From positions 30,153,001 through 30,217,000 of the forward strand of contig NC_081822.1 of NCBI RefSeq assembly GCF_030704535.1: a DNA stretch of 64,000 nt, in the 5' to 3' direction. Both the position numbers and the translations under genes were made by a program. Below the pieces are notes generated by a model. The model saw only the letters and a list, made by a program, of their open reading frames with translations. It had not been told where the DNA came from and did no database searches. Positions 23,594 through 56,123 of this stretch are shown here, piece after piece; position 1 is the first letter of the stretch; the number at the start of each line of letters is the position of its first letter. Origin of the DNA: Vitis vinifera (lineage: Eukaryota; Streptophyta; Magnoliopsida; Vitales; Vitaceae).

Positions 23594-26284
23594 GACTGGA
23601 AAGAGACAGGGATGCGAACTGCCTTTCCACTTTCTCGGAAGAATACGAATCTAGTTTTGTATGGAAACTGACCTTCATATTATCAGGTTTATTTGCATGG
23701 GATATAATAAAAAGGAAAAAAAAAAAAAGAGAGAGAAAAAAGACCTAAATAAAGAAAGAAAAAGCAAGTACAATTTTTTAGGGGCTTTCTTTTTTTCTTT
23801 TCCTTTTCAAATTAACATTAACTTCTCTAATTTAAAACTTGATAAAATTTTAGAATAACAAAACCATTAGAAAAAAGTTATTCTCAAAGTCATGTTTAAT
23901 AATAGTTTTTTAAAACAATCTTATGTTATTTAGAAAAAGGAAAACACGTTAGACAATTAGAGAATATAAAAACAGTTTTCTATTATTAAAAATCGAGAGC
24001 AAATGTTTTTAGAAAATAATTTTAAATTATTTTTACTTATTTTCTAAGGACAATTCTAAAAATAATTATATAAATATGGAGACCAATTAAAAATAAACTA
24101 GTATAAATAAAAGTTATTTTTAAAACTAATTAAAAAATATATTAAAAATATTTGAGATTCTCAAACAAATTTTTGTTTTATAAAACTCTAAAAAACAATT
24201 TTTAAAAACTATGCTTTAAATTCATTTTAAAAAAACACTTTTCAAAGATCAGCAAAGTTTTTCTTTTCTAAAAGGTAAAATTATAATTATTTTTTAATAT
24301 ATATATAATAATTCTCCATTGACACAATAGCCACGTAGTGCGCCTTTACTATGGAGAATGAGCATATGGTCCGGGATAGGAGTAGTGGGTTTCAAAATAT
24401 TCTATCACATGAAGAAATAGATAGAAAAATCGTCTGTTTCTAATTTTTTATTGAACTTCATATTCTTGTTTGGTGATTGATGTAGGACCATGGAATCCTT
24501 TATACGTTTTTATCTTCTCTTTTTCTAGTTGCTGCAGGATAAGAGAATGAATGAACAATTCTAAGGCCTATCACAAAAGAAATAGATCAAAAGAATTATC
24601 TTTTTCCAATCTTATTACATCTTTTTATTTTTTAGTTAATAATGTACGAAATAGAATTAACGGTCTATTTATATGCTCCTTCCCCACAAGTGATGAAAGA
24701 AAATGGAATTAATTCTTGAAGGATAATTGTTGTAGTAGTTGGAGTTAATTTTGAGGAAGAAAGAATATGGGAAAAAAAAAAATTAGGGAAGCAAAGAAGA
24801 TTGTTACAAGGGGAATGATAAATAATTTATAATTTGATAAGTTGTAAAGAAAAAAAGACAAAGTAATTGAAAGAAGGAGATCGAGAATCGTATCCTTTTA
24901 AATATTTTGAGATATATTATTCATATGTGGACAATGTCTATACTATCTCCTCATCTCCACTTCTGAACTTATTACCCATCTCTAGCTTATTTCTTATCTT
25001 AGATTGAACCGGATTGAGAATCTTTATTAGGAAAACAAATTCCTCATCAAGACCAGGAATCTTATTTAGTTGGTTTTTAAAATTTTATAATTTTAGTTTT
25101 AAAAAAGTTAAAAATAAAATTATATATAAACTAGTATATCTAAAATAAAATCTTTTATTATATTAATAATAAACTAGTAATAAAAAATATTATTGTAGAC
25201 CCCCATTTTGGGGAGCTATCATTCTTCTCACGTTTCCTTTCTTGCAGTTAGCTGTGGCCAAGTGTCACCATCTTGCATGGCCACGTGTCATTCCCGGATT
25301 AGTCAATATGAGATCAAAATAGTGGAATTGATGGACCAATCAGAAGAATATTTGGCTGTTGAGAGGAGCGTAGGAGAGGGGTGCTTTTTCTGCCGGCTAA
25401 AAGATATTTTGAAGGGATCTTTTTCTGTTAAGGGTGAGGCTTTTTGAGTGGAGTAAGGGAGGCTGGCAGCTGGGTGAGGTGCCGGGGATGCAGTTAGGAT
25501 ATTTTTGGGCGGGAGGAGGTTTGGCAGAGGATGGAGAGGCTGGTGACAGAGCAGAGAGCTTTAGAGAGAAAAGTGAGAGAGACATTAGAGCTTTAAGGGA
25601 GGATAGTTTAGCTTAAGGAAGGTGAGAGAAGGGAGATTCTGGAGAAGCAAGCTGAGAGAACCAGAGTGCCTTTAGGATGAGAGAGAGGTAACTGGGGGGA
25701 GGATGTTTGCTGGAGAGTTGTGGACAACTTGAGGAAAAGATGAGCCGAGAGTGAAGGAGAAAGGATCTGAGAAAGATAGAGTTGAAGAGGCGAGAGGAGG
25801 AACAACTCAAGAACTTTGAAAGACCATCTCCAGGTACATTGGTGGTAATCTCTTGGACTATTCTCACTCACTCTGTTTTCTTTCTATCTCACATTTTCTC
25901 TTGCTGTCTCTGTTTTCTTTTATGATCCTTGGTTAGTTGTTCGGGTATAAGTGTGATGCTGTATTACTTTCCTCTGTACTTTTTGCTTATTTGGATATGG
26001 CTCATTCCCCTTTTGGTATTTATTTTAAACTCTCCTGATGCACCACTGGCCAAAACCCCTGGATCTCAATATGAAAGGGGATCCCACTTAATGCTTTGCT
26101 CACTCTGTTTACTCTGCCATGGGTACACTATATCTTGTTTTATTTCTTCCTCCATTTCCGGTATCTCAATCCATATTTTGGTTTCTAGCTCATGTTCCTG
26201 GATTTGTTTTGGACTATTGGTTTTGTGTTCTGGTTTGTGCTTGAGGGGAGAGGGTGGTGCTTTGGCTACTGCCACAGATTCAGG

Positions 26285-26725
26285 GTTCCCAGTGGACGAG
26301 ATGCAGATGAGTGATACTGGTCCTTGAGGGTCTTGCACCGAGATACATTTTGGTAGAATTGCTAATAGTGATGCTGTATCATTGGCCGACAATGACGTTC
26401 CTCGTGTTAAGATATGGAACTTTTGTGTTTATACAGTTCGACAGGGAAAGAGATGGTTCTCTTAAATCTCTGCCTGCTAAACATGTCAACGCCGGAACGG
26501 GTTTTGAAAGATTGACTTCCATTCTTCAAGGCAAGACGAGTAATTGTGATAATGATGCACTCTTACTCGTCTTTGACGCTATTCAACAGGCGACTAATGC
26601 CTGATCATATTCAGGGAAAGCTGGATCAAATTATACAGATAAAGTTGGCTTGGCATACAGAGTTGTCGTTGATCACTTAAGAACCTTTTCTTTTGTTATT
26701 GTTGATGGATCTTGCCCAACTTAGA
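26285..26725 (+). pseudogene. Captured alanyl-tRNA synthetase fragment (left LTR)
   Basis: The translation matches the catalytic domain of alanyl-tRNA synthetase. It begins with a DTGP segment, then [10 protein letters not shown] and, one frame over, [20 protein letters not shown] with the family signature [12 protein letters not shown] (usually HVDTGMGFERL). It continues through [22 protein letters not shown] and a DGSCP end. Damage includes an in-frame TGA where Cys is expected (about 26326), a frameshift near 26420 and a TGA after QATNA (26602). About 145 codons are represented and no intron was apparent, which would fit capture from spliced RNA. It cannot encode an enzyme. Confidence 0.8.
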
Positions 26726-26864
26726 GCACTTTTGACTAGTGGTTTGGGTATGGATGGGAAACCACTATGAAGGACGATGCTGTTATGATGCTTGCCCGTT
26801 TTAATGATCAGGGAATTTGGATATGGCATTTTGTGTTTATCAAGAAACCCATGGGATATGGCAT

Positions 26865-27112
26865 AAATGTTCCCTACAACAGCTTCATGTCAATCAAGAA
26901 ACCCATGCTCTGCTACAGATGTTACTTATCCTTACAAAATTGCGTATCTTACCAATGGTTCTGGTGCACATATTATATTTGGTTGTAGTGAGGACCAGAT
27001 TGGCTCCTTTTTGGATGGGGTTACTCTCAATGGCATATTTGGATTTGGTACGAGCGGTGTTCGTTCCTATCATTTTAGCAAAGGAAAGGCCATTACTGTT
27101 GGGGTATATTGA
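26865..27112 (+). pseudogene. Captured aspartic protease fragment (APF1/nepenthesin-like, left LTR)
   Basis: The frame at 26867-27112 carries the inter-catalytic part of a plant A1B aspartic protease: a Cys-containing stretch with TYPYKIAYLTNGSG (usually CPY...YLSNGTSS), then IIFGCSEDQIGSFLDG and NGIFGFG (usually FGCGxxQTGSFLDGAAPNGLFGLG). Neither catalytic DTG/DSG motif is present. About 15 codons that normally separate the two blocks are missing, and a stop follows SKGKAITVGVY. A scrap, not a gene. Confidence 0.7.
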
Positions 27113-27192
27113 GAAGGCGGGAACCCTTGACAATGGAGTCTTCCCCTGCACGCATTGTATTGAGTGGAAGCCGATAACCCCAACCCAGATCA

Positions 27193-27525
27193 ATGGAGCC
27201 GACACCCAGACACTCATGCCTGAAGCTTCAAATTCCTAACCAATCGGAACCCATCTTCATCAAGGCCACCTGGTTTCCTTCCCATTTCCACCTCTCTATC
27301 ACCGACAGCCTCCACACCTGGCTCTGTAACGCATCGGAAGACGAGGTCCGAGAGCGAGCCGCCCAGTGGGATCAACCTGTTTCTGATTACATCGCCTTGG
27401 CTGAGCGGTTCCTAGGGTTTCAGCAGCCCGGTTCGGTTTACGGGTTCTCCGACGCGGGTGACGGCCATAGAAGATTGCCATGGACATTTGAGAAGGAAGG
27501 GACTAAGCTAGAATGGCGGTGGAAA
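27193..27525 (+). pseudogene. XRCC4: Captured XRCC4 N-terminal fragment (left LTR)
   Basis: The frame from ATG 27193 encodes the head domain of plant XRCC4, the DNA ligase IV partner in non-homologous end joining. It starts MEPTPRHSCLKLQ, then IFIKATW, LSITDSLHTWLCNASEDEV, AAQWDQPVSDYIALAERFLG, and ends at WTFEKEGTKLEWRWKC near 27525. After that, similarity stops and LTR sequence follows, so the coiled coil and C-terminus are absent. The captured piece is uninterrupted here (about 111 codons), the best preserved of the three fragments. A stable product is doubtful. If made, it could resemble an isolated head domain. Confidence 0.8.
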
Positions 27526-28515
27526 TGTGGACCCTTCATTGGAGCTACTCTAGCTACCCTGCAGCCACGTGTTTCATGCAGAATGCTTGGAGCAGTTGAC
27601 TCCAAATCAAGCCTCCACCCTTGCATGAACTATGCATGGCCACCTTTGACCACGTGTCACCTCCTTTTATTCCTCTCATTTCACCATCCTTAGTTTTTGA
27701 AAATAATCTTCCTAAACTCTAGTTTGCGAATAATTTTTCAAATTCCTTTTTTTCAAATAATTTCATCTGTTTAATTTTTCATCCTTAGTTTTTTCGTTTA
27801 GGTTCCAAAAATCATCTTTTCAATAAAATTTGGCCATCATTCTCATTCTGGTAGGTCACTTTCAAATTTTCTTTGTTTTTTTAAATGTTTTAAAATAAGC
27901 ATGAATTAAATTCCGTAATTCCGAATAATGGAATTTATGGAATTAATTCATGCAAAAATAAACGGGCTTTGGTGGGGACCCTACATAAGTGATTTCCTTA
28001 TGATTAATTTATCGATTGATTTAATTGCCATGAATGATAGATTTTATTATGCTCTGTGACATGTCTCGTGATTGTTATTATGCTTTCCTCTCTGGATAGC
28101 GCATGGTGGCTCGTTGATCAGGTACACATCTATTCTCACTTTGGTCACTCTATATACATGTATTGATTCCCATATGTGCATGATCAATTCGGGTATCCAT
28201 TGATTTCTTTATTAGATGCCACGATTGCTTCATTTTATTAGTAGAGACCCGACTTTAGGGACTTAAAGGGGTGCTACGGTCTTTACCGTACCTTCCTGAT
28301 AAGTAACCTGACCCCCGAACCCGATCCGGTTTTTCATGGACCGCATTTTCCAAAACAAGGAGTCACACTTAGGGGTTTTCTTTCTTATTTTGTTTACCCT
28401 TTAAATAATAAAACAAAAATAAGTGGCGACTCCAAGTCATTTCTTTTTAATAAATAAAAATCATTTTCAAATAAAAATCGAGCTCGCCATCGAGTGGGAA
28501 ACGCAATGAGTTGAA

Positions 28516-28603
28516 ATGCGGGGTCCACAAAATGGTGTGTCAAACTCGTACCGATGCGGGGTCCACAAAAGGTGATCCAACCGATACCCAAACTCGTACC
28601 GAT
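28516..28603 (+). repeat. Interleaved short duplications at the left LTR/internal junction
   Basis: TGCGGGGTCCACAAAA occurs at 28517-28532 (the LTR end) and again at 28555-28570. CAAACTCGTACCGAT occurs at 28541-28555 and 28589-28603. The left arm copies the right arm's LTR end plus AAATGG past it, then diverges. This looks like a template-switch scar. Confidence 0.75.
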
Positions 28604-29914
28604 CTCAGAGCACTCTCAACTGGAGACTAAAAAAAAGAGGGAGTGTCAAATCCGAACTATGACTACAGAGGCTACTAAAAGCCCTCAGATGCACCCACGT
28701 GTAAAGAGGAAGTCCTAATCGAAGGATCTACGGCTCAACCTACGAGGTCAATGGTGGCTCTAAATGGATATGGGTGGACTTTAAAAGATCCATAGCAGAA
28801 GCGATCATACCTTCCAACGGTACGCAACCCTCTACACACCTCCTAAGAGACGGGACGCTTCCATGCAAGGTGGTCATCACCTCCACACATGCACTACCTC
28901 GACATCCCAAGGGATTTCCTATGGTGAGACCTCTCAAAACTCTCAACGCTTAATGGTCGACTAGAGTGCACAGTGAACGGTGTGGGTGCATCCGAAAACC
29001 TTATGAAACTAAAAGAGAACACACTGGCCACACAAATATCCTGAAATCTAACTCTGGGCTATATAAGTCTTCGAAGTTCGGACTCCAATCAGCATCAATA
29101 TGTCGACCACCTCCAGAATGCTCCCAAACATAGATATAGCCCATCGCTAGACCCTACTCCTAATCACTAGCTCGGTCGAAGAGAAAACAAAGCAACAAGT
29201 CTCGTATCAAATATGAGACCAAGGAAAACAATGTCGACCGAGACTAGGGACTTGAAAATAAGGAGATAAGTGTGTGTCCCACATAGACACGCAACTCATG
29301 CAGTCACATCAGAAGAAAGGCAGTCACGCGACAGGCAGTCAGGCAGAGTACAAGATATATCACTCATGCACACATACAAGCTATGACAATCAGATGAAAA
29401 AGTGATACAAATATCATGCTCAAAGACAATCAAGAGAATATATAATCCAGACAATCGACATGTCAAATCAAACGATGTATAACAATGAATCCATATATGC
29501 AAGGTGGTCAAAACAATCATGGCAAATATCAGGATGACTATGCTAAGCAAGGCAAGATGATCAATCAATATAATCAGTATGTCAGTGTACTCAACAATCA
29601 TGGAAATGAAGCATAGAAAAAAAACAAAATCCTCAATCAAGATAATCAATCTCATAATCAGCATGTCAAATATCTCATACAAATATATCAATGAAGCATG
29701 AAGAAACTGGCTATATTAGAATCCTCAATCAAAATAATCAACCAACATGATCGACCAACATGATCAACATGTCAATGTCCCAAGTGAAAGCTCGAGAACT
29801 CTCAATGTGCAATCAAAAGATGAGTACCCACTGATCAACTCACCAAACGCCACGTTTGCTTCACTTTAAGTTCAAGCTTGACCCTTTAAAAGATCCCCAA
29901 TGGAGTCGCCATTT
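28530..29914 (-). other. Non-coding internal region of the inverted-LTR element
   Basis: About 1.4 kb with no retroviral domain in any frame. Read on the minus strand from the primer-binding site it is GATTGATT/CATGATTG-rich, like the long leader of Ogre/Tat elements. Short frames at 28740-28946 and 29296-29691 show no domain. An A-rich, purine-rich run at 28628-28642 (AAAAAAAAGAGGGAG) could be a polypurine tract on the plus strand. Confidence 0.6.
29892..29911 (-). promoter_or_regulatory. Primer-binding site, tRNA-Arg type (Ogre/Tat-like)
   Basis: On the minus strand, three bases after the right LTR's terminal CA, the sequence reads TGGCGACTCCATTGGGGA. It resembles the tRNA-Arg-complementary site used by Ogre/Tat Gypsy elements. 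It makes the right LTR the 5' LTR of a minus-oriented element. Confidence 0.65.
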
Positions 29915-31060
29915 TGTGGACCCCGCATTTCGGCTCATTGCGTTTCCCACTCGATGACGAGCTCGATTTTTATTTGAAAATGATTTTTATTTATTAAAAA
30001 TAAATGACTTGGAGTCGCCACTTATTTTTGTTTTATTATTTAAAGGGTAAACAAAATAAGAAAGAAAAACCCTAAGTGTGACTCCTTATTTTGGAAGAGG
30101 CGGTCTGTGAAAAATCAGATCGGGTTCAGGGGTTAGGTTACTTATCAGGAAGGTACGGTAAAGATCGTAGCACCCCCTAAGTCCCTAAAGTCGGGTCTCT
30201 ACTAATAAAATGAAGCAATCGTGGCATCTAATAAAGAAATCAATGGATACCCGAATTGATCATGCACATATGGGAATCAATACATGTATATAGAGTGACC
30301 AAAGTGAGAATAGATGTGTACCTGATCAACGAGCCACCATGCGCTATCCAGAGAGGAGGTTAGTGCATAATAACAATCACGAGACATGTCACAGAGCATA
30401 ATAAAATCTATCATTCATGGCAATTAAATCAATCGATAAATTAATCATAAGGAAATCACTTATGTAGGGCCCCCACCAAGGCCCGTTTATTTTTGCATGA
30501 ATTAATTCCATAAATTCCATTATTCGGAATTACGGAATTTAATTCATGCTTATTTTAAAACATTTAAAAAAACAAAGAAAATTTGAAAGTGACCTGCCAG
30601 AATGAGAATGACGGCCAAATTTTATTGAAAAGATGATTTTTGGAACCTAAACGAAAAAACTAAGGATGAAAAATTAAACAGATGAAATTATTTGAAAAAA
30701 AGGAATTTGAAAAATTATTCGCAAACTAGAGTTTAGGAAGATTATTTTCAAAAACTAAGGATGGTGAAATGAGAGGAATAAAAGGAGGTGACACGTGGTC
30801 AAAGGTGGCCATGCATAGTTCATGCAAGGGTGGAGGCTTGATTTGGAGTCAACTGCTCCAAGCATTCTGCATGAAACACGTGGCTGCAGGGTAGCTAGAG
30901 TAGCTCCAATGAAGGGTCCACATTTTCACCGCCATTCTAGCTTAGTCCCTTCCTTCTCAAATGTCCATGGCAATCTTCTGTGGCCGTCACCCGCGTCGGA
31001 GAACCCGTAAACCGAACCGGGCTGCTGAAACCCTAGGAACCGCTCAGCCAAGGCGATGTA

Positions 31061-31321
31061 TATAGAGAAATATACTGCTGGATTAAATAAACTATTTCCT
31101 CCTCTGTTATTCAATTGATCTGTACGTAAATACATACAATATCACAGAGAACTATTTTAGGAAATATTTACAGCAATTACTATGACAAAATAACTATATA
31201 CCAATCTCGGCTAATAATCACATAAATAGAAACAGATCAAAGACTTTATTCAAATGGCTTGATTGTAGGCTGAAATCATGAAGGTTTGACTTGATCTTGA
31301 TTTTGGCAATCTTCCTTAATA
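31061..31321 (-). repeat. Copia 3' LTR
   Basis: 261 bp, differing from the 5' LTR at 4 sites. The pol frame runs 46 nt into it before stopping at 31276. Confidence 0.9.
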
Positions 31322-34300
31322 CGCCCCCGCAAGATTGAGCTTCCATCGGCAAGACCAATCTTGGTACATAACAATTCAGTCCGTTGCCGTGACAAGGGTT
31401 TTGTCAAGAGATCAGCAAGTTGATCTTGCGTGTGAACATGACGAACATGAAGGGTCCCATTTTGAACAAGCTCTCGGACAAAGTGTAAATCAATCTGAAT
31501 ATACTTCATGCGAGAATGATTAACTGGATTAAAACTCAGATGTGTGGCGCCAAGATTGTCACATAGCAACAAGGGAGGCACCTTGAGTGGAAAACCGAGT
31601 TCATGATGTAAGGAGTTCAGCCACACAGTTTCAGACGTAGCATTGGCAAGAGCACGATATTCAGCTTCCGTCGATGAGCGAGCAATAGCTCGTTGTTTCT
31701 TGGAGCTCCAAGAAATGGGATTTGTGCCAAGAAAACTAATATAAGCCGAAGTAGAGGTTCTGTCATCCACATTCCCTACCCAGTCAGCATCAGAGAACGT
31801 GGTTAAAACTGAAGTTGTGTTTCTAGTAAGCTGAATACCATGAAAAATGGTTTGTTTCAAGTAACGAAGCAGTCTCTTCGTGGCTGTCCAGTGGGCTGTA
31901 GTTGGCTTATGCATGAATTGAGATAGCTTATTCACAGCAAACGAAATGTCCGGTCGGGTCAGTGAAAGATACTGAAGACTACCAATGACACGCCGAAAGT
32001 CAGTGCTGTCAACAGGTGCTGTGCCATCAAACAATTTCAGAGAAGCAGTTGTGGATAAAGGAGTGGACACATCCTTAGCACCAAGCATATTCGTTGTGGA
32101 CAATAAGTCACGAATGTATTGATGCTGTGACAAGAATAGACCAGCACGAGTAGGAATAACCTCTACTCCCAGAAAGAAGCTATGGTTTCCCATATCTTTT
32201 AGGGAAAAATTTTCACCCAATTTCTGAATTATGTGATCCACAAACTGAATATCATTGCCAGTAATTACAAGATCATCAACGTAAACCAAAAAATAGCAAA
32301 TGATAGGACCATGTGTATAAATAAATAGAGAAGAATCAGCTTTGGAATTTTTGAACCCAAGCTGAAAAAGAGCAGTTCTTAGAGTTGTGTACCAAGCTCG
32401 AGGAGCCTGTCGAAGCCCATAAATGGCTTTTCTCAATCGACACACATGATCAGGCTTACTGGTATCTTTAAACCCTGGAGGTTGCATCATATAAACAGTT
32501 TCTGTGAGGGTTCCATGTAAAAAAGCATTGTTGATGTCCATTTGGCGTAAAGGCCACCCATTCATCACGGCTATAGTCAAAACACATCGAATAGTGGCTG
32601 GCCTAACAACAGGACTGAAGGTTTCCTTGTAATCTAGGCCCGGTCTTTGAGTATAGTCTTTGGCCACAAGCCTGGTCTTAAATTTGTCCACCGAGCCATC
32701 AGCTTTGCGTTTTACTCTAAACACCCATTTACAGCCCACGGGTGTACAGTTTGGGAGGGGTGGAACCAAATCCCAGGTTCCATGTTTCATCAAGGCAGTG
32801 AGCTCAGTGGACATAGCATCACGCCACTGAGGATGGTTCACGGCTTGAGTTGCACAAGTTGGCTCAATTGCTAGAGGAATGGGATGTTTGGAAACCAAAT
32901 GAAGTTGCTTGGGTTTAAAGATGTTGTTCATGGAACGGGTTGTCATTTTGTGGAGACGAGGGTTCCCAGTTTGAACACACGAAGGGGGAATGGAATGGGA
33001 CTGAGATAAAGTAAGATCAGCAACCGTGTGTGTGTGAGTCGGATGAAGGGAGGAAAGAAGAACAGGGTCATGCGAGATGAGAACATTTGAATGAGAACCG
33101 GAATTTCTAAGAACATCAGTCAAAGGAAAATTAGGAGAAGAGAGAGGGGGCTTACCTGGAGGTGATGGAGATGCAGCAGAAACATCGGTCGGAAGCACAT
33201 GTGATGGTGCCGAATCAGAGGAGTGCACGGACGGAATCACTTGAGGAGGAACTCGCATGGGCTGAGAAGAAAATGGAATAAAGGAAGTAGGGCACAGATG
33301 AGAAGAAGACTCGGGATGGGCTGGGCTCTGGGCTTGCTCGGATTGAAAAGGCAGTTGGGTCTCATCAAATAACACATGCCGAGACACATAAGTTTTGTGG
33401 GTCTTAAGATCCAAACAAATATAGGCATTTTGAGTTTGAGAATAGCCCAAAAAAAGACATGGAATGGACTTAGGTTGCATCTTGTTATTATTATATGGAC
33501 GTGTAAGGGGATAGCAAAGCGAACCAAATTTTTTTAATTTAAGATAATTTGGTTTCTGTCCAAAAAGAGCCTCAAAGGGGGACTTGTTGGTGAGAAGAGG
33601 AGTCGGTTGCCTATTTATGAGATAGGTGGCAGTTCGAAAAGCATGAGGCCAATATGAAAGAGGCAAGGAAGCATCCGAAAGTAAGGTGAGGCCAGTTTCA
33701 ACAAGATGTCGATGACGGCGTTCAGAGACTCCATTTTGTTGCGGGGTGTAAGGAGCAGTAGTATAGTGACTAATGCCGTGAAGATTTAAAAAAGGTTTGA
33801 GAGAAATAAATTCACCACCATTATCGGAGTAAAGGGTTTTAATTTTGGCTTGAAACCGAGTTTCAACAAAAATTTTAAATTGTGGAAAAATAGTTGACAC
33901 ACTCGATTTGGTAGCCATGGGATAAAACCACATGTATATCGTGTAGTGGTCCACAAAAAGAAGATAATAACGAGAACCATCAAGACCCGTTGAGTGTGCG
34001 GGACCCCAAACATCCGTATAAATAATTTTAAGTGGACCAGTACTCGAAAGACTAGTTGTGCGAAAAGGTTGTTGATGAGATTTATTAATAGAACAAGAAC
34101 GACATAACATGGTTATTTTATTTGTAGTGGTAGGAAGAGAAAAAATAGAAACAAGATTTTTAACAATGGGATAGGAAGGATGACCAAGACGCTTGTGCCA
34201 CCCATCAAGCAACATCCGTTCATGCACATTAGCAACCTTTTGTGAAAAATTTCCCACAAGTGATTCCGAAAAAATGTAAATGCCGTTCTCACATGAACCT

Positions 34301-34404
34301 CTTAGTAGGATCGCCCCTGTGATCGGTTCCTTCACAAGAAAATAAGATGGGTGAAACTCAACATATACATTATTTTGTGAGGTAAAATGATGAACATAAA
34401 TCAA
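31276..34404 (-). CDS. Copia pol: integrase, reverse transcriptase, RNase H
   Basis: A 1042-codon open frame. Domains in order: GAG-pre-integrase zinc finger (H70-x4-H75, C101-x2-C104); integrase core with D131 (YTDVWG), D194 (YSDNGGEF) and E228 (NGVSERR); a Ser/Pro-rich linker (about 355-480); reverse transcriptase with YVDD at 708-711; and RNase H with D872/D874 (SDADW) and E913 (STEAEYRAL). All visible catalytic residues are kept. It is separated from the gag-protease frame only by an in-frame TAA at 34411-34413, and the first listed codon is TTG, so it is not an independent gene. It would be made as the downstream part of a gag-pol polyprotein if the stop were suppressed. Confidence 0.9.
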   Translation of the reverse strand: MIYVHHFTSQNNVYVEFHPSYFLVKEPITGAILLRGSCENGIYIFSESLVGNFSQKVANVHERMLLDGWHKRLGHPSYPIVKNLVSIFSLPTTTNKITMLCRSCSINKSHQQPFRTTSLSSTGPLKIIYTDVWGPAHSTGLDGSRYYLLFVDHYTIYMWFYPMATKSSVSTIFPQFKIFVETRFQAKIKTLYSDNGGEFISLKPFLNLHGISHYTTAPYTPQQNGVSERRHRHLVETGLTLLSDASLPLSYWPHAFRTATYLINRQPTPLLTNKSPFEALFGQKPNYLKLKKFGSLCYPLTRPYNNNKMQPKSIPCLFLGYSQTQNAYICLDLKTHKTYVSRHVLFDETQLPFQSEQAQSPAHPESSSHLCPTSFIPFSSQPMRVPPQVIPSVHSSDSAPSHVLPTDVSAASPSPPGKPPLSSPNFPLTDVLRNSGSHSNVLISHDPVLLSSLHPTHTHTVADLTLSQSHSIPPSCVQTGNPRLHKMTTRSMNNIFKPKQLHLVSKHPIPLAIEPTCATQAVNHPQWRDAMSTELTALMKHGTWDLVPPLPNCTPVGCKWVFRVKRKADGSVDKFKTRLVAKDYTQRPGLDYKETFSPVVRPATIRCVLTIAVMNGWPLRQMDINNAFLHGTLTETVYMMQPPGFKDTSKPDHVCRLRKAIYGLRQAPRAWYTTLRTALFQLGFKNSKADSSLFIYTHGPIICYFLVYVDDLVITGNDIQFVDHIIQKLGENFSLKDMGNHSFFLGVEVIPTRAGLFLSQHQYIRDLLSTTNMLGAKDVSTPLSTTASLKLFDGTAPVDSTDFRRVIGSLQYLSLTRPDISFAVNKLSQFMHKPTTAHWTATKRLLRYLKQTIFHGIQLTRNTTSVLTTFSDADWVGNVDDRTSTSAYISFLGTNPISWSSKKQRAIARSSTEAEYRALANATSETVWLNSLHHELGFPLKVPPLLLCDNLGATHLSFNPVNHSRMKYIQIDLHFVRELVQNGTLHVRHVHTQDQLADLLTKPLSRQRTELLCTKIGLADGSSILRGRIKEDCQNQDQVKPS

Positions 34405-34410
34405 TTTTTT

Positions 34411-35585
34411 TTAAAGATTTGGAACACAGAGAGTATCACGCAAGATAAAGGTTCGATTGGGTGAGTGTATAGCTAAAGAACCAACATGTGAAACAGCCAA
34501 ACCTGAACCATCACCCAGAACCACTTCATCGGTGCCGTCATATTCAGAGTGAATAGATAAATTCTGAAGATCACCAGTGATGTTGTGGGAGGCAGCGGAA
34601 TCAAGGAGCCATTTTTGCTCTTTCATGGTAGAAGTTGTTGCACTGTTTGCAGTAATTTCACTGGGCTTCAGTTGAGGACAATTTTTGGCTGTATGGCCCA
34701 ACTCATCACAGAATTGGCATTTGGGCCTATAAGGCCGCTGGTTGTTGCTGGGCCGATTGGAACCATTGGGACGTCGACCATCACGATTTCCACTTCGGGC
34801 TGGAGCTTGCCCAGACTGACGCTGAGGCCCATTCGGCTTGCTATAGCTGCGTTGTTGACCTCCCGAAGAACCAGACTTCCTGGTTGTATAGTTTGCAGCG
34901 GCCACCAGTTGCTGAGTAGCAGTTTCAAGGCGGCGCAAATAATGTTTGTGGCCGACCAGAAGATCGTGGAGCTCCTCAAAGGCAAGAGACTTTTCGCGAG
35001 CTCGGATTGGTGCTACAATTTCCCTGAAATCAGAACCTAAGCCATTAAGCACATAGAGGGTTAGGTCATCATCAGAAATGGGGTGGTCAATAATGGCAAT
35101 TTCATCTGCCAGAGACTTCACAGCATGTAGATAATCAGAGATAAGCCGATTTCCACGCTGTATTAAGGTGAGTTCCTCTTTTAATTGCATAGCCCGAGTT
35201 CGTGATTTGCTAGCATAGAGGGTGTTCAATTTTTGCCAAGCCTCATGGGACGTTTTTGCTGTTGCAATGAGTGGGGTGATGGTAGGGGAAGTGGAAGCAA
35301 GAAGGGCACTGAGTATAAGTTTGTCTTGCCGAACCCAATGAGTTTTGTGTAGGGCAGAAATAGAGAGATCACTCGGAGAGGGACATTGAGAGATGCCGGT
35401 GACATAATCAAGCAAATCATATCCTATGAGTAAGGCTTCAAATTGAGCACGCCATTGAGGAAAAGTAGAAGGAGTCAATTTTTCATTAATCTGGGCAGTG
35501 ATTTGAGAGCAACAAGAGTGGTTTCAGTGGAGGAAATGAGGTGGGTGTTGAGATGAATTTGAGGTTGTTCGGGTGAGGAAGACAT
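34411..35585 (-). pseudogene. Copia gag and protease, with N-terminal frameshift
   Basis: The likely start ATG is at 35585, 50 bp after the primer-binding site. That frame ends after about 36 codons (near 35475), and gag continues in another frame from about 35510, so a small indel has broken the N-terminus. The long frame (35478-34411, 355 codons) has the retrotran_gag region, an Arg/Gly/Asn-rich stretch (about 200-252), a CCHC zinc knuckle (C254, C257, H262, C267) and the protease active site as DSAAS (D293), where DSGAS is usual. It ends in TAA inside an 8-A run. Confidence 0.8.
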
Positions 35586-35623
35586 TGGGGAAATGGGAGG
35601 GATCGACTCGTTGGAGAAGGGCT

Positions 35624-35635
35624 GCTCTGATACCA
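35624..35635 (-). promoter_or_regulatory. Copia primer-binding site (initiator tRNA-Met)
   Basis: The minus strand reads TGGTATCAGAGC immediately after the 5' LTR, the standard Copia site. Confidence 0.9.
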
Positions 35636-35896
35636 TATAGAGAAATATACTGCTGGATTAAATAAACTATTTCCTCCTCTGTTATTCAATTGATCTGTAC
35701 GTAAATATATACAACATCACAGAGAACTATTTTAGGAAATATTTACAGCAATTACTATGACAAAATAACTATACACCAATCTCGGCTAATAATCACATAA
35801 ATAGAAACAGATCAAAGACTTTATTCAAATGGCTTGATTGTAGGCTGATATCATGAAGGTTTGACTTGATCTTGATTTTGGCAATCTTCCTTAATA
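35636..35896 (-). repeat. Copia 5' LTR
   Basis: 261 bp, the partner of 31061-31321, adjoining the primer-binding site. Confidence 0.9.
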
Positions 35897-36171
35897 ATTA
35901 GAAATGGGTTGATCCCACTGGGTGGCTCGCTCTCGGACCTCGTCTTCCGATGAGTTACAGAGCCAAGCGTGGAGGCTGTCGGTGATAGAGAGGCGGAAAT
36001 GGGAAGGAAACCAGGTGGCCTTGATGAAGATGGGTTCCGATTGGTTAGGAATTTGAAGCTTCAGGCATGAGTGTCTAGGTGTCGGCTCCATTGATCTGGG
36101 TTGGGGTTATCGGCTTCCACTCAATACAATGCGTGCAGGGGAAGACTCCATTGTCAAGGGTTCCCGCCTTC

Positions 36172-36420
36172 TCAATATACCCCAACAGTAATGGCCTTTC
36201 CTTTGCTAAAATGATAGGAACGAACACCGCTCGTACCAAATCCAAATATGCCATTGAGAGTAACCCCATCCAAAAAGGAGCCAATCTGGTCCTCACTACA
36301 ACCAAATATAATCTGTGCACCAGAACCATTGGTAAGATACGCAATTTTGTAAGGATAAGTAACATCTGTAGCAGAGCATGGGTTTCTTGATTGACATGAA
36401 GCTGTTGTAGGGAACATTTA
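36172..36420 (-). pseudogene. Captured aspartic protease fragment (right LTR)
   Basis: The counterpart of 26865-27112, differing at one residue in 81 (AQIIFGCSEDQ versus AHIIFGCSEDQ). It has the same missing block and the same stop, so the damage predates the split of the two LTR copies. Confidence 0.7.
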
Positions 36421-36558
36421 TGCCATATCCCATGGGTTTCTTGATAAACACAAAATGCCATATCCAAATTCCCTAATCATTAAAACGGGCAAGCATCATA
36501 ACAGCATCGTCCTTCATAGTGGTTTCCCATCCATACCCAAACCACTAGTCAAAAGTGC

Positions 36559-36999
36559 TCTAAGTTGGGCAAGATCCATCAATAATAACAAAAGAAAAGG
36601 TTCTTAAGTGATCAGCGACAACTCTGTATGCCAAGCCAACTTTATCTGTATAATTTGATCCAGCTTTCCCTGAATATGATCAGGCATTAGTCGCCTGTTG
36701 AATAGCGTCAAAGACGAGTAAGAGTGCATCATTATCACAATTACTTATCTTGCCCTGAAGAATGGAAGTCAATCTTTCAAAACCCGTTCCGGCGTTGACA
36801 TGTTTAGCAGGCAGAGATTTAAGAGAACCATCTCTTTCCCTGTCAAACTGTATAAACACAAAAGTTCCATATCTTAACACGAGGAACGTCATTGTCGGCC
36901 AATGATACAACATCACTATTAGCAACTCTACCAAAATGTATCTCGGTGCAAGACCCTCAAGGACCAGTATCACTCATCTTCATCTCATCCACTAGGAAC
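36559..36999 (-). pseudogene. Captured alanyl-tRNA synthetase fragment (right LTR)
   Basis: The counterpart of 26285-26725 with the same TGA and frameshift, and few substitutions (ILQGKIS for ILQGKTS). Shared lesions show that capture and decay happened before the inverted pair formed. Confidence 0.8.
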
Positions 37000-38025
37000 C
37001 CTGAATCTGTGGCAGTAGCCAAAGCACCACCCTCTCCCCTCAAACACAAACCAGAACACAAAACCAATAGTCCAAAACAAATCCAGGAACATGAGCCAGA
37101 AACAAAATATGGATTGAGATACCGGAAATGGAGGAAGAAATAAAACAATATATAGTGTACCCATGGCAGAGTAAACAGAGTGAGCAAAGCATTAAGTGAG
37201 ATCCTCTTTCATATTGAGATCCAGGGGTTTTGGCCAGTGGTGCATCAGGAGAGTTTAAAATAAATACCAAAAGGGGAATGAACCATATCCAAATAAGCAA
37301 AAAGTACAGAGGAAAGTAATACAACATCACACTTATACCCGAACAACTAACCAAGGATCAGAAAAGAAAACAGAGACAACAAGAGAAAATGTGAGATAGA
37401 AAGAAAACAGAGTGAGTGAGAATAGTCCAAGAGATTACCACCAATGTACTTGGAGATGGTCTTTCAAAGTTCTTGAGTTGTTCCTCATCTCGCCTCTTCA
37501 ACTCTATCTTTCTCAGATCCTTTCTCCTTCACTCTCGGCTCATCTTTTCCTCAAGTTGTCCACAACTCTCCAGCAAACATCCTTCCCCCAATTACCTCTC
37601 TCTCATCCTAAAGGCACTCTGGTTCTCTCAGCTTGCTTCTCCAGAATCTCCCTTCTCTCACATTCCCTAAGCTAAACTATCTTCCCTTAAAGCTCTAATG
37701 TCTCTCTCACTTTTCTCTCTAAAGCTCTCTGCTCTGTCACCCAGCTGCCAGCCTCCCTTACTCCACTCAAAAAGGCTCACCCTTAACAGAAAAAGATCCC
37801 TTCAAAATATCTCTCAGCCGGCAGAAAAAGCACCCCTCTCCTACGCTCCTCTCAATAGCCAAATATTCTTCTGATTGGTCCATCAATTCCACTATTTTGA
37901 TCCCATATTGACTAATCCGGGAATGACACGTGGCCATGCAAGATGGTGGCACTTGGCCACAGCTAGCTGCAAGAAAGGAAACGTGAGAAGAATGATAGCT
38001 CCCCAAAATGGGGGTCTACAATTAT

Positions 38026-41015: not shown

Positions 41016-43135
41016 GACTGGAAAGAGACAGGGATGCGAACTGCCTTTCAACTTTCTCGGAAGAATACGAATCTAGTTTTGTATGGAAACTGACCTTCAT
41101 ATTATCAGGTTTATTTGCATGGGATATAATAAAAAGGAAAAAAAAAAAAAGAGAGAGAAAAAAGACCTAAATAAAAAATAAAAAAAAGCAAGTACAATTT
41201 TTTAGGGGCTTTCTTTTTTTGTTTTCCTTTTCAGATTAACATTAACTTCTCTAATTTAAAACTTGATAAAATTTTAGATAACAAAACTATTAAAAAAAAA
41301 AAAAGGGTTATTCTCAAGGTCATATTTGGTAATGATTTTTGAAAACAGTTGTATAATAATTAGAAAAGGAAAACACGTATGATAATTAGAATACAAAAAC
41401 AGTTTTTCATTATTAAAAATTGAGAATAGTATGTTTTTAAAAATTATTTTTAATTCTTTTTACTTAATTTTTAATGACTAATTATATAAATAGGGAGGAT
41501 GATTAAAAATAAAGTATTGTAAATAAAAATTATTTTTAAAATATATTAAAAAACATAGAAAAAATGTTTAAAATATTTCTAAATTTTAAGCAAATTTTTG
41601 TTATACAAAACTTCAAAAAGACATTTTTCAAACATAACCAAAGTTTTTATTTTCTAAAAAATAAAATTACAATTATTTCTTAACATATATATATATATAT
41701 ATATTGACATGTACAATAGCCACGTAGTGCGTCTCAGAGGAGAACGAGCATTTGGTCCAGGATAGGAGTGGCGGGCTTCAAAATATTCTATTACATGAAG
41801 GAATAGATAGAAAAATTGTACGTTTCTAATTTTTGACTGAATTTCATATTCTTGTTTGGTGATTGATGTTGGACCATAGAATCCATCATACATTTTTGAC
41901 TTTATCTTTTTCTAGTTGCTGCAGAATAAGAGAATGAATGAACAATTCTAAGCCCTATCACAAAAGAATTATTTTTTTCCAATCTTATTACATCTTTATG
42001 TTTTTTTATTGTTAATAATGTACGAAATAGAATTAACTGTCTATTTATATGCTCCTTCCCCACAAGCGATGAAGGAAAATGGAATTAATTCTTGAAGGAT
42101 GATTGTTGTAGCAATTGGAGTTAATTTTGAGGAAGAGAGAATATATATGGGAAAGAAAAATAATTAGGGAAGCAAAGAAGATTGTTACAAGGGAATGATA
42201 AATAATTTATAATTTGATAAGTTGTAAAGAAAAAACGACAAAGGAATTGAAAGGTGGAGAGAATTGTATTCTCTTATATATTTTGAGATATATTATTCAT
42301 ATGTGGACAATGTCTATGCCATCTCCACTTCTAAATTTATTCCCCATCTCTACCTCATTTCTTATCTTAGATTGGATGGGAACTGAGAATCTTTATTAGG
42401 AAAACAAATGCCTCATCTAGATTGAGAATCTTGTTTAATTGGTTTTTAAAATTTCATAATTTTAGTTTTAAAAAAGTTTAATAAAAAATTATATATAAAC
42501 AAGTATATTTAATATAAATTTTTTATAATACAATTTTTTTTTTTGAGAAAAAAAGTGTATATTATATATATATATATGTAATGGTATATTAGGACTTGGG
42601 ATGGGATGGTTTTGGGGTGAGGAATAGGGTCTTTGTCCCTCATTGAGGTTTTTAAATTTTTCATTGTCATTGATTTGATTATTACTCCTTATCCTTGTAC
42701 CAATGTTTTTTTTTTTTTTTTTGGTAGTTTTTTTTCATCCCTCAATTTATACTTTAATTTAGTACTAGATCTCATAAAAATACTAGATGGAGTTGATATA
42801 GAGTTTTCAAAGATTGGCAACAGTGTACATCTAGTTCTTGCATACTTGTGGAAGCTCTAAAATTTTTGTGAGCCTGGTGTAAAGCCACAACAGAAGGAGC
42901 CTAATCCTAGGAAGTTGAGTGATGCTTGCTAGTATGACACTAAAATAGTTTCTACTTATGTTTAAGTTTTTCAAGGAAGATAAGCTCCTAAGTCAACAAG
43001 AATTGTAAATCTAATTCCCTTTAAGGAGCATAAAGCTAGAAATAGACCCTTAAATAAATCAAAAATGAAAAAAAAAACATAGGGTCATAAGGAGTGTTGA
43101 AACTAATAAATGTTGGCCAGCCTATCGTCTACACT

Positions 43136-48180: not shown

Positions 48181-48657
48181 TTTAGATTTAAATAACAGAA
48201 ATAATGTCAATTTTTTTTAAAAAAATTGATTTTTAGGGTTAAAATACTGATTTTTAGGTTTGAATGTTCTCAAGCCTTAAATTCAAGTGTTGAAGAATTA
48301 AATCAATGTTCTCGAAAGTCTCGTAGACCCATGATTTTCAACCCAATGATTCAACTATATTCCTTAGCACACAAATAATAGGTAGTTCAAGAGGGTAGAG
48401 GGTAAGATTCTTTTCTCTTTGGATAGTGAAAGACAAAAGTGATGGCTAACTTATGCATTTTCAAATTATTTTATCTTTACATGAAAAGTTAAAATAAATT
48501 AAATGAGTTTGAAGAAGTATTTTATGATTTTAAATCTATTTTTTATTTTTCTTTTATTTTTCTCTCTATTTTTTTTTCTCATATATTCTCTCTAAATTTT
48601 TGGGAAACCAAACATAATCCAAGAAAAAGAAGGAAAAACAAAAGTAATAGCACTTAC

Positions 48658-49142
48658 TGATTATGAAGGTGCCATCCAGATAGATTGATTGCTTCTTTCA
48701 AGGCTGCTCTCCACTTCTCTATCTTCTCTCTATTCTCCTTGCTCACATCTTTTTCATACTCCATAAATGCTTTCCCATAACTCCCCGTCTGGTTTCTCAC
48801 TTCGGTTGGATCCACATGGTAGAAAACTTGGAGAGCCATTCGCCTCATTGTTGCCACACTCAATAATCTTTATAACTTCATCCGAACACCATCTAGAATC
48901 AGCATAATTTTCGAGAAAATAACAATGGAAATCCTTGACTGCTCGATAGCTTTCAAGAGTCCTGGTGCTCCTCTATCAAGTTCTTCATCATCTCTAAAGG
49001 TGTGAATTCCATTTGCAACCAAAGCTGTGTATAGATGATCCATAAAATTTTTGCGGGTGTCTTTCCCTCTGAAACTCAAGAAAACATCATGACTCCAGGG
49101 AGGGATAGAAGAAGAGGGTGCTTGAGTGCTGCTTGAAGCCAT
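48658..49142 (-). pseudogene. TIR-domain first exon, copy 1 (broken by indels)
   Basis: It begins MASSSTQAPSSS, then WSHDVFLSFRGKDTRKNF (TIR box 1), HTFRDDEELDRG (box 2) and the SRISIVIFS strand. It has lost one base near 48912 and two near 48857. The net loss of three restores the frame, but the shifted stretch between them stops at 48870, so the conserved Tyr-Ala-Asp and Trp-Cys...Glu segment is scrambled. The later TIR part (ALQVFYHVDPTEVRNQTGSY) is intact and keeps the CGA codon (48840-48842) that became TGA in the other copies. A GTAAGT donor follows at 48657-48652. TIR domains of plant immune receptors hydrolyse NAD+; here no partner exon is in reach. Confidence 0.85.
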
Positions 49143-51712
49143 AAATGATAACTGCTGAAACTACCATGGACTGGAGATTTCTGCACTGATTCTACAGGGT
49201 ATGAGACTTAGTATTTAAGTTGTTTCATTAGGGAGAAAATATGGGAGGGTGAAGTAAGCAAGAAATGCAGCACCTCAAAGTCAACAAATTAGCTTTATCT
49301 TGGAGATCAATCCCAGGAAGGGGGTACCTACCAGTCAACAACCTTTATTTGTTTGTTTGTTTTTGTCTTTTTTTTTTTTTATAAAAAAAATGGATATCAA
49401 TCCCAAAGATTGTTGTCCTTTGGGATAAGAATGGGAGAAAAAAATTCTTATTCATTGGGATAAGAATAGAAGACGAAAATTCCTATTCTTCTCTTCCTTT
49501 CCACATCTTTTTCAGTAACTAAGATATGAGATTAATAAATAATTAAATCTAGAGGTTAAAGAAGTTTAATTAATCAGTTTCTCTTTACATATTTAACAAA
49601 TTATTAAAATGACACTTTAATAACATTTTTATGAATTGTTAATATATGAAGAATAGTAGTTAATTATTTATATACATTTTGGTTATGTTTGGTTCTGAAC
49701 AATACTAGAAAAAGAAAAAATATTAATTAAGGAAAATAATTTTTTTTCTATTTGGTTATCCCATGTAAAATACGAGAAAAATATTAAATATAGTTAAAAT
49801 TAATTTTAAAACTTATATATTTTCAAATCTAGCTTTATATTCAAGAGTTAAAATAATAAAAATAATTTATTAACTTTAAATTTATTTTTTATTTTTCTTA
49901 AATTTTTTCTCTCTACTTTCTTTCTTTTATATTTTTCTTAAATTTTTTGATAACCAAATACAACTTGTAAGTATTAGGGTTGCAACTTGGGCGGATTGGT
50001 TGGGATTGATGACTAACCAAATCCAACCTGAATTAAGAAACAATCAACCTAAACTCATTTTTCTAAACTCGAGTTAAATTCGGGTTAATCGAATTAGACT
50101 TCAACTGATCAGGTTACATTTGACTTTGTCGGGTTTATTGGATTGTATAATTCAAAATTTTAAATTTTTTAAAATATAATTATACTAAAATTTAAATAAT
50201 AAATAACACAAAAGTTGAAGATAATAATAAAAAAAATGAAAATAAACTTCTATATCTTAAAAAAAAAAAGTATAAGATATAAAAGTAAAATAAACTTATT
50301 TGTCTTTTTTGAAAAAATAAAAAATATATAATATAATTATAATTTGATATTTTTAAAAATCTAAAAAGAAAATGAATATTATCACATAAAATAATAAACA
50401 TTATAAATACTATACAAATATTAAATCGCATTTTGTTTAGACTAAGGTTATTCAAACATTGACCCAAGTCTAATCCAAATTAAGTTCAGGTTTGAGAAAA
50501 CTTCACCCAAATACAACCCGATTAATAAAATTGTTTACCCAAGCCCATCCAAACATTGGGTTGGGTTCGATTAGATTGGGCCAATCTGTCCAAGTTACAC
50601 CCTGGTAAGTACAAAAAAATAAAAATAAATAAAAGATAAAATACATGGTATAAGGTATGATTACAATTTCCCTTTTAATATATCCCATGTTTGTGAGATT
50701 AGTATTTTTTTTTTCTTATTACTTAATGGATGGAGCCGGAGAGTGGACTTTTGGATAATGATCAAGATTGGATTTGATAGTATTTATGTGGGTGATGGGG
50801 TGGTTATGAGGTGATTTTCATCCCTTAATAAAGTTGTGACAGAAAATATGGTAGGTGGTTATAATTCATTTTATAATAAGTTCCGTAGAGCAGCGCTTCT
50901 AGTCCAATAATCTTCTCCGAAGGCGTGTCTTCCACCTAGTGAAGATGACAGGAGATGCCTTGCTCCACCACCTCTAATCCAAGGACAGTGAAAAGTGAAG
51001 AGTGGCTTCATTCTTTTATCCTTCCAGTGGACACTCAAATCAACTTTTTCTAAGCTATAGAAATCGGGTTAGAACTTGGAATAGAAATGCATGAAAACTT
51101 CACAAATATATAAAGAATTTAAGCTTCAAATACAGATCATTAACCTCAATTTTCAAGGCCACCAAACAGCCCCAAAGTAGAGTTCATGAGATTGAAACTT
51201 TCAATAACAAGTTGTAACGAATTTTCCATCATTTTTTATATTAAATGTCGAAATTTAGAAATCCATACTTTCCCCTTTTCCCTTATCTTTGCCTACACTT
51301 TCCTTTTTGTCATTCATTTTTGGGTTATCAGTAGGTGGAAATTTAAAAATTTTTAATAATCATTTAATGACGACGTCTTTACCTCACTTTCCTCTATTTG
51401 TTGGGCAACCAAACAAACCAAACTTGGAGTTGACAGTTGGGGTTATACCTTTCAAAGGCCTTTGTTTTGGAAAAATATAATAAAAATATTAAAAAGATCA
51501 TCTCCTTCTTCCTTTAAATTTTCATATTTTTCAAAGCAATTAGATGGAGGATAGGTTCTTCTTAGTCTTCCTATGAAAGCACCTATAAATGAGATATTAT
51601 TGTGAGTCAACAACTGGGATTATATCTTGAAGCAATTACTGTTTATTGTTACATAGTGATCACGTGCTTCACCAAACTAGGTCAATTCTTCTTAGTGAAC
51701 TTGCCAAACACT
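49143..51712. other. Upstream DNA of TIR copy 1
   Basis: AT-rich, with no other gene. It contains a TTTAAATAC-like promoter stretch near 49215 and is repeated almost identically at 52598-55169. Confidence 0.6.
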
Positions 51713-52109
51713 TGAATGTTCTCAAACCTTAAATTCAAGTGTTGAAGAATTAAATCAATGTTCTCGAAAGTCTCGTAGACCCATGATCTTCAATCCAATG
51801 ATTCAACTTTATTCCTTAGCCACAAACAATAGGTAGTTCAAGAGGGTAGAGGGTAAGATTCTTTTCTCTTTGGATAGTGAAAGACAAAAGTGATGGATAA
51901 CTTATGCATTTTCAAATTATTTTATCTTTACATGAAAAGTTAAAATAAATTAAATGAGTTTGAAGAAGTATTTTATGATTTTAAATTTATGTTTTATTTT
52001 CCTTTTATTTTTCTCTCTATTTTTTTGTTCTCATATATTCTCTCTAAATTTTTGGGAAACCAAACATAATCCAAGAAAAAGAAGGAAAAACAAAAGTAAT
52101 AGCACTTAC

Positions 52110-52597
52110 TGATCATGAAGGTGCCATCCAGATAGATTGATTGCTTCTTTCAAGGCTGCTCTCCACCTCTCTACCTTCTCTCTATTCTCCTTGCTCACAT
52201 CTTTTTCGTACTCCATAAATGCTTTCCCATAACTCCCTGTCTGGTTTCTCACTTCGGTTGGATCCACATGGTAGAAAACTTGGAGAGCCATTCACCTAAT
52301 TGTTGCCACACACTCAATAATCTTTATAACTTCATCCGAACACCATCTAGAATCAGCATAATTTTCCGAGAAAATAACAATGGAAATCCTTGACTGCTCG
52401 ATAGCTTTCAAGAGTCCTGGTGCTCCTCTATCAAGTTCTTCATCATCTCTAAAGGTGTGAATTCCATTTGCAACCAAAGCTATGTATAGATGATCCATAA
52501 AATTTTTGCGGGTGTCTTTCCCTCTGAAACTCAAGAAAACATCATGACTCCAAGGAGGGACAGAAGAAGAGGGTGCTTGAGTGCTGCTTGAAGCCAT
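52110..52597 (-). pseudogene. TIR-domain first exon, copy 2 (nonsense codon)
   Basis: A 488-nt exon ending at a GTAAGT donor (52109-52104). It encodes TIR boxes 1 and 2 and the SENYADSRWCSDEVIKI helix, whose Glu sits where the NADase glutamate of plant TIRs is expected. It then stops at TGA (52292-52294) just before MALQVFYHVDP. Copy 1 has CGA there, so the change is C to T in a CpG. The predicted truncated peptide is 101 aa; the downstream half (61 codons) remains open. No NB-ARC exon follows. Confidence 0.85.
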
Positions 52598-55169
52598 AAA
52601 TGATAACTGCTGAAACTACCATGGACTGGAGATTTCTGCACTGATTCTACAGGGTATGAGACTTAGTATTTAAGTTGTTTCATTAGGGAGAAAATATGGG
52701 AGGGTGAAGTAAGCAAGAAATGCAGCACCTCAAAGTCAACAAATTAGCTTTATCTTGGAGATCAATCCCAGGAAGGGGGTACCTACCAGTCAACAACCTT
52801 TATTTGTTTGTTTGTTTTTGTCTTTTTTTTTTTTATAAAAAAAATGGATATCAATCCCAAAGATTGTTGTCCTTTGGGATAAGAATGGGAGAAAAAAATT
52901 CTTATTCATTGGGATAAGAATAGAAGACGAAAATTCCTATTCTTCTCTTCCTTTCCACATCTTTTTCAGTAACTAAGATATGAGATTAATAAATAATTAA
53001 ATCTAGAGGTTAAAGAAGTTTAATTAATCAGTTTCTCTTTACATATTTAACAAATTATTAAAATGACACTTTAATAACATTTTTATGAATTGTTAATATA
53101 TGAAGAATAGTAGTTAATTATTTATATATATTTTGGTTATGTTTGGTTCTGAACAATACTAGAAAAAGAAAAAATATTAATTAAGGAAAATAATTTTTTT
53201 TCTATTTGGTTATCCCATGTAAAATACGAGAAAAATATTAAATATAGTTAAAATTAATTTTAAAACTTATATATTTTCAAATCTAGCTTTATATTCAAGA
53301 GTTAAAATAATAAAAATAATTTATTAACTTTAAATTTATTTTTTATTTTTCTTAAATTTTTTCTCTCTACTTTCTTTCTTTTATATTTTTCTTAAATTTT
53401 TTGATAACCAAATACAACTTGTAAGTATTAGGGTTGCAACTTGGGCGGATTGGTTGGGATTGATGACTAACCAAATCCAACTTGAATTAAGAAACAATCA
53501 ACCCAAACTCATTTTTCTAAACTCGAGTTAAATTCGGGTTAATCGAATTAGACTTCAACTGATCAGGTTACATTTGACTTTGTCGGGTTTATTGGATTGT
53601 ATAATTCAAAATTTTAAATTTTTTAAAATATAATTATACTAAAATTTAAATAATAAATAACACAAAAGTTGAAGATAATAATAAAAAAAATGAAAATAAA
53701 CTTCTATATCTTAAAAAAAAAAAAGTATAAGATATAAAAGTAAAATAAATTTATTTGTCTTTTTTGAAAAAATAAAAAATATATAATATAATTATAATTT
53801 GATATTTTTAAAAATCTAAAAAGAAAATAAATATTATCATATAAAATAATAAACATTATAAATACTATACAAATATTAAATCGCATTTTGTTTAGACTAA
53901 GGTTATTTAAACATTGACCAACGTCTAATCCAAATTAAGTTCAGGTTTGAGAAAACTTCACCCAAATACAACCCGATTAATAAAATTGTTTACCCAAGCC
54001 CATCCAAACATTGGGTTGGGTTCGATTAGATTGGGCCAATCTATCCAAGTTACACCCTGGTAAGTACAAAAAAATAAAAATAAATAAAAGATAAAATACA
54101 TGGTATAAGGTATGATTACAATTTCCCTTTTAATATATCCCATGTTTGTGAGATTAGTATTTTTTTTTTTTCTTATTACTTAATGGAGGGAGCCGGAGAG
54201 TGGACTTTTGGATAATGATCAAGATTGGATTTGATAGTATTTATGTGGGTGATGGGGTGGTTATGAGGTGATTTTCATCCCTTAATAAAGTTGTGACAGA
54301 AAATATGGTAGGTGGTTATAATTCATTTTATAATAAGTTCCGTAGAGCAGCGCTTCTAGTCCAATAATCTTCTCCGAAGGCGTGTCTTCCACCTAGTGAA
54401 GATGACAGGAGATGCCTTGCTCCACCACCTCTAATCCAAGGACAGTGAAAAGTGAAGAGTGGCTTCATTCTTTTATCCTTCCAGTGGACACTCAAATCAA
54501 CTTTTTCTAAGCTATAGAAATCGGGTTAGAAATTGGAATAGAAATGCATGAAAACTTCACAAATATATAAAGAATTTAAGCTTCAAATACAGATCATTAA
54601 CCTCAATTTTCAAGGCCACCAAACAGCCCCAAAGTAGAGTTCATGAGATTGAAACTTTCAATAACAAGTTGTAACGAATTTTCCATCATTTTTTATATTA
54701 AATGTCGAAATTTAGAAATCCATACTTTCCCCTTTTCCCATATCTTTGCCTACACTTTCCTTTTTGTCATTCATTTTTGGGTTATCAGTAGGTGGAAATT
54801 TAAAATTTTTTAATAATCATTTAATGACGACGTCTTTACCTCACTTTCCTCTATTTGTTGGGCAACCAAACAAACCAAACTTGGAGTTGACAGTTGGGGT
54901 TATACCTTTCAAAGGCCTTTGGTTTGGAAAAATATAATAAAAATATTAAAAAGATCATCTCCTTCTTCCTTTAAATTTTCATATTTTTCAAAGCAATTAG
55001 ATGGAGGATAGGTTCTTCTTAGTCTTCCTATGAAAGCACCTATAAATGAGATATTATTGTGAGTCAACAACTGGGATTATATCTTGAAGCAATTACTGTT
55101 TATTGTTACATAGTGATCACGTGCTTCACCAAACTAGGTCAATTCTTCTTAGTGAACTTGCCAAACACT
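52598..55169. other. Upstream DNA of TIR copy 2
   Basis: A near-identical repeat of 49143-51712. No gene recognised. Confidence 0.6.
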
Positions 55170-56054: not shown

Positions 56055-56123
56055 AAATGATAACTGCTGAAACTACCATGGACTGGAGATTTCTGCACTG
56101 ATTCTACAAGGTATGAGACTTAG

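Follow-up and report, generated by a model that had tools for sequence, protein, structure and literature searches.

How does a retrotransposon insertion come to carry two long terminal repeats (LTRs) that are inverted relative to each other? The question is raised by a unit in a 64-kb window of the Vitis vinifera genome (assembly GCF_030704535.1, contig NC_081822.1, positions 30,153,001-30,217,000, written C18:30153001-30217000). This window is the whole stretch of DNA that was analysed, and coordinates without a prefix are positions within it; other loci are named by contig (C4, C5, C10, C12, C14, C17, C18), and the whole-genome searches covered 495.6 Mb in 21 contigs. We consider it probable that the C18 unit is one aberrant insertion of an ordinary LTR family, in which two incomplete products of reverse transcription were linked tail to tail and integrated via like ends.

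Architecture of the C18 unit

Self-comparison of the window and the junction sequence agree with the layout given in a preliminary description of this DNA, namely two inverted 3.3-kb LTRs with their U3 ends outside and about 1.4 kb between them; by piece, the inverted arms are 94-99% alike. The left LTR (25194-28529, plus strand, 3336 bp), recognized by family-LTR matches, starts with TGTAGACCCC and terminates with GGGGTCCACA. The right LTR (29915-38020, minus strand), recognized by self-comparison, is split by a later Copia insertion (31060-35896, minus strand) that was identified from its own LTRs and domain matches. The interior separating both LTRs (28530-29914, 1385 bp) holds a scrambled inner junction (28530-28570, plus strand), the 5' leader of the family in antisense to the plus strand (28568-29893, minus strand) and a primer-binding site, TGGCGACTCCATTGGGG, which adjoins the right LTR (29895-29911, minus strand, by sequence match). 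Next to the left LTR there is no more than AAATGG, so that the primer-binding site is one-sided, as had been stated. On the minus strand the order is LTR, primer-binding site, 1.3 kb of leader and inverted LTR. Neither gag nor pol genes were found in the unit. It has the TG...CA ends and the 5-bp target duplication of an LTR retrotransposon (Ty3-like), but its LTRs are inverted instead of direct.

In the junction sequence, the target-site duplication ATTAT (25189-25193 and 38021-38025) directly precedes TGTAGACCCC on the left and follows GGGGTCTACA on the right. The duplication is 5 bp long, the sixth base being unlike on both sides. The chance of such a match is ~0.3% for the composition of the flanks (the right-hand stretch was started a few bases inside the flank) and ~3% assuming A and T only, equally frequent. 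A duplicate locus near 42.56 kb had been described as empty; the element is absent there, but the exact insertion base is not fixed. Since the paralogous stretch (42530-42612) is AT-rich and aligns loosely, the empty site is supported without an exact base.

Host gene fragments and the two arms

An alanyl-tRNA synthetase-like fragment (26311-26604, plus strand; PF01411, E 3.3e-11; cytoplasmic alanine-tRNA ligases in the PDB, E 8e-14) and a spliced XRCC4 fragment (27103-27535, plus strand; PF06632, E 3.6e-25) lie in the middle of the arm, sense to the LTR, with copies in the right LTR. The XRCC4 fragment is 95.6-97.2% identical to the exons of the gene at C5:6949862-6950563. Both introns are precisely absent (splice sites checked), which indicates that a spliced transcript was captured. 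Among the 40 of 184 candidates that were scored, this fragment is confined to both C18 arms and the C5 gene, and its presence in both arms points to one LTR source for the two. The alanyl-tRNA synthetase-like part also matches loci on C5, C10, C13 and C19 at 82-85%, and this capture may therefore be older. A reading of 26867-27109 as an aspartyl-protease piece found no support and was dropped.

A comparison of the arms over 3253 positions shows 69 differences (2.1%, or 97.9% alike; aligned as two halves with 45 of 2124 and 24 of 1129). Their last 850 bp contain 22 single-base differences, at which the majority of 13 relatives agrees with the left arm in 10 and with the right arm in 12. This split is to be expected if the arms were near-identical when inserted and both have changed since; the C18 arms were likely, though short of demonstrated, identical at birth. 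A simple doubling during assembly is argued against by the fact that the arms are not exact copies and that one of them carries its own later insertion.

Arm bases 1-155 and ~2486-3336 match many LTRs across the genome. One relative, C4:14677946-14694490, has direct LTRs of ~3.7 kb (98.2% alike), the duplication GTATG and the primer-binding site TGGCGACTCCACTGGGGA; the stretch immediately after its 5' LTR is matched by the C18 interior (28568-29914). The leader has 39 other listed copies in the genome (40 of 1296 candidates scored, C18 included). Retrotrans_gag is present in relatives at C10 and C17, and pol was found in none of the 8 of 22 listed reading frames that were scanned in relatives. 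A piece of the window at 1085-1275 shows 75.6% similarity to the 3' portion of the LTR.

The inner junction

The AAATGG that follows the left LTR corresponds to the first 3 nt of the primer-binding site plus the 3 nt preceding it. After it come TGTGT, a 15-nt copy of the leader (28541-28555, with its source at 28589-28603), a 17-nt copy of the LTR end (28554-28570) and the leader proper. In 39 of the 39 other listed copies, the leader match begins at 28565 or later. Such back-and-forth copies of nearby sequence are the trace of a polymerase changing template or of templated end joining. Strand switching, which had been named as a possible origin of the unit, is retained as a possibility, and the C18 join could have been made either by a strand switch or by end joining.

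Like-ended relatives elsewhere in the genome

Is the C18 unit unique? An LTR-start survey with exact TGTAGACCCCCATTTTGGGG plus any base gave 51, 57 and 37 matches, or 145 LTR starts, while the reversed control pattern had no match in the genome. Seventeen neighbouring pairs of LTR starts lie within 20 kb, 10 of them direct, 5 with U3 outside and 2 with U5 outside. The 7 opposite pairs compare with 0.43 expected by chance, if an even genomic spread is assumed and clustering ignored. They represent 5 places, because 3 pairs belong to one repeated C5 segment. At these places the outer duplications match at C18, C14 and C17 and are unlike at C5 (one of three copies examined). The C10 case was reached through LTR-end matches, as the LTR start there departs from the survey pattern. 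Outer duplications match at all four loci, C18, C14, C10 and C17.

At C14:21286936-21293965, U3/U3 outer ends are flanked by the perfect 5-bp duplication CTATG. Two LTRs are direct here, and the U5 end of the right one abuts an inverted copy of its own first ~305 bases. The outer ends at C10:1708231-1721376 are U5/U5, with the perfect 5-bp duplication GTTAG. The C10 element's own LTRs are identical over 770 bp; its inverted piece shares 84.7% with them across 769 bp, which indicates that another family member served as template and that two templates were joined. At C17:7750289-7768996 the LTRs are inverted with U5 outside, within the 5-bp duplication CATAA. Similarity between the C17 arms is 98.6% in a stretch of 3985 bp and 98.8% in one of 596 bp, and a gag-bearing internal region adjoins the joint. 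The inverted LTR starts with CATATT, the 6-nt stretch that separates the purine tract GAAGAGGGG from U3, where a plus-strand start after the purine tract would lie.

A search of the genome for other such units has thus yielded C14, C10 and C17, each with two like outer ends and matching duplications. The layout is no family trait, since the C4 relative is direct and so are 10 of the 17 neighbouring pairs; this also rules out a family with inverted LTRs. The unit is not unique, however, and inverted-LTR insertion is a recurrent accident. The pair at C12:20368780/20379902, the last of the 5 places with opposite pairs, was not counted as a case: CTTAC precedes the left U5 end and recurs on the right, where LTR homology breaks off after ~160 bp, and no U5-like end was found within 4 kb to the right. 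Over the range C12:20366135-20380062 the LTR pieces are inverted; each has a purine tract on its inner side, and CTTAC is found at either outer limit. This locus may be a fifth case, one of whose ends is aberrant.

Origin of the inverted unit

What kind of molecule could have been inserted? According to the explanation that we favour, a first product would cover everything from U3 to the primer-binding site plus 1.3 kb of leader, and a second would end just past the LTR, being LTR-only like plus-strand strong-stop DNA. Both would stem from the same LTR source and would be joined tail to tail, before or during integration, by strand switching or end joining. The joined molecule would present a U3 end on each side, and integrase would insert it via these two like ends, leaving the usual 5-bp duplication. 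The first 10 bases of both LTR ends, read inwards (TGTAGACCCC and TGTGGACCCC), differ at one position, and such near-identical U3 and U5 termini may make like ends easy to use.

A single molecule might also have sufficed. At C18 the plus strand would have left its template 1.3 kb into the leader and copied its own 5' LTR up to U3, and the completed hairpin would have integrated via its two U3 ends; at C17 the minus strand would have done so as the mirror image. The near-identical arms at C18 and C17, the precise run-off at the U3 end and the templated back-and-forth copies at the C18 inner junction are all consistent with such a snap-back, but the inverted piece at C10 comes from a different family member, and a C17 copy starting at the 6 nt between purine tract and U3 is not predicted. 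We regard the snap-back as conceivable yet rather doubtful. Joining between different molecules is seen at C10, while C18 and C17 also allow the single-molecule course.

On the other hand, two separate cDNAs might each have contributed one U3 end at one site, after which their inner tails would have been joined by error-prone chromosomal end joining. In vitro, integrase can bring together ends that belong to two donor molecules, and polymerase-theta joining leaves comparable filler. Outer ends of one kind, a truncated interior, the templated filler at the inner junction and the unlike templates at C10 would all be accounted for; the end product alone, however, is identical to that of joining before integration. 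We judge this course to be possible, with the balance somewhat against it. The wider proposal that pairing of like ends (U3/U3 or U5/U5) from separate cDNAs is a regular activity of the family's integrase in planta is likewise put forward with more reserve than conviction.

Could the two LTRs have been inserted independently, or could one have been inverted after insertion? A head-to-head pair with unlike flanks does exist at C5:2090549/2097186, where AACCC and AAGTT mark two independent insertions, so that inverted neighbours alone prove nothing. This pair recurs in two further copies ~107.9 kb apart (the flank comparison covers one copy). Three further points also weigh against the explanation that we favour: the differences between the C18 arms are clustered, a single 250-bp bin holding 13 of them, and could reflect unlike templates; a few of the differing sites are also variable among relatives; and ATTAT sits in AT-rich DNA, which makes this duplication weak evidence alone. 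As evidence, the duplication counts for less than the XRCC4 fragment in both arms and the like-ended relatives with other duplications. The claim that the unit integrated as one piece is supported by the matching ATTAT together with these two findings. Independent insertion or inversion is very unlikely, because the duplications match, the XRCC4 fragment is present in both arms and the interior holds only leader and junction. Inversion of one LTR after insertion, which had been listed among the possible origins, has been abandoned, as each of four loci would independently have had to break precisely where the outer end of the LTR meets the duplication.

Self-integration, also suggested previously, would have an LTR end attack the leader of its own cDNA, and PMC4751563 describes how retroviruses and Ty1 yield inverted two-LTR circles in this way. 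We discard it as extremely improbable, for the U5 end retains AAATGG past the CA at which integrase would cut and join, the junction is scrambled, circles are the usual products and on the left the unit begins exactly with U3 next to the duplication. A DNA transposon with terminal inverted repeats, similar to a Pack-MULE, is ruled out by the 5-bp duplication and the spliced XRCC4 capture, as Pack-MULEs make a 9-bp target duplication and their captured genes, taken up as DNA, keep their introns.

Comparison with known systems

DIRS-type elements have inverted terminal repeats as a family trait, use a tyrosine recombinase and make no target duplication. Inverted repeats are found in both, whereas the C18 unit has a 5-bp duplication and relatives with direct LTRs. 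In Sabot and Schulman 2007 (PMC1950507), complex LTR insertions in Triticeae are attributed to abnormal template switching. The likeness is that a cDNA from a faulty switch was inserted once with a 5-bp duplication, and a single outer duplication around a multi-template unit is found here as well, with unlike templates seen only at C10. Those insertions, however, have a third direct LTR and two cores, whereas C18 consists of a single leader piece and a pair of LTRs in inverted orientation; neither "invert" nor "opposite" occurs as a word in that paper. The autointegration circles of Ty1 and retroviruses (PMC4751563) also have mutually inverted LTRs, but they are extrachromosomal, whereas the C18 unit is linear, lies in the chromosome within a target duplication and has an inner junction that is not of the integrase kind. 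Plant LTR retrotransposons capture genes by template switching, and Wis-2 sequence occurs in a BARE LTR, according to the review PMC13317346. Foreign transcript sequence is carried by the element in both cases; in C18 it is a spliced host-gene fragment, XRCC4, that lies inside both LTRs. No description of an integrated inverted-LTR retrotransposon with a shared target duplication was found in a search of mostly open literature that left out older retrovirus papers, so that its absence from print is unproven; the complex Triticeae insertions and the autointegration circles came closest.

Because LTR annotation programs seek direct repeats, inverted units have likely been missed or filed as DNA transposons. 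Such units preserve a failed reverse transcription, with the strand that was joined, the site and the filler, and they would make the need of integrase for one U3 and one U5 end testable in vivo. C18 and at least three related insertions suggest that miscopied DNA with two identical ends is still integrable. If true, like-end pairing would be a by-path of retrotransposition that yields inverted-LTR insertions, including foldback units with host gene fragments. The 3.3-kb inverted repeat, with its host gene fragments, might also give rise to hairpin RNA directed at XRCC4 and further genes.

Further observations

The Copia element in the right LTR has 262-bp LTRs that are 98.5% alike, open frames of 1044 and 370 aa, and RVT_2, rve and Copia gag domains. 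Elsewhere in the window, tandem repeats of several kb occupy 48260-58924, one pair being 99.0% alike across 4.4 kb, and open frames at 61295-63451 resemble another Copia polyprotein, as judged by eye only. On C5, LTR starts at ~107.9-kb steps in 1987674-2312951 suggest a large tandem duplication.

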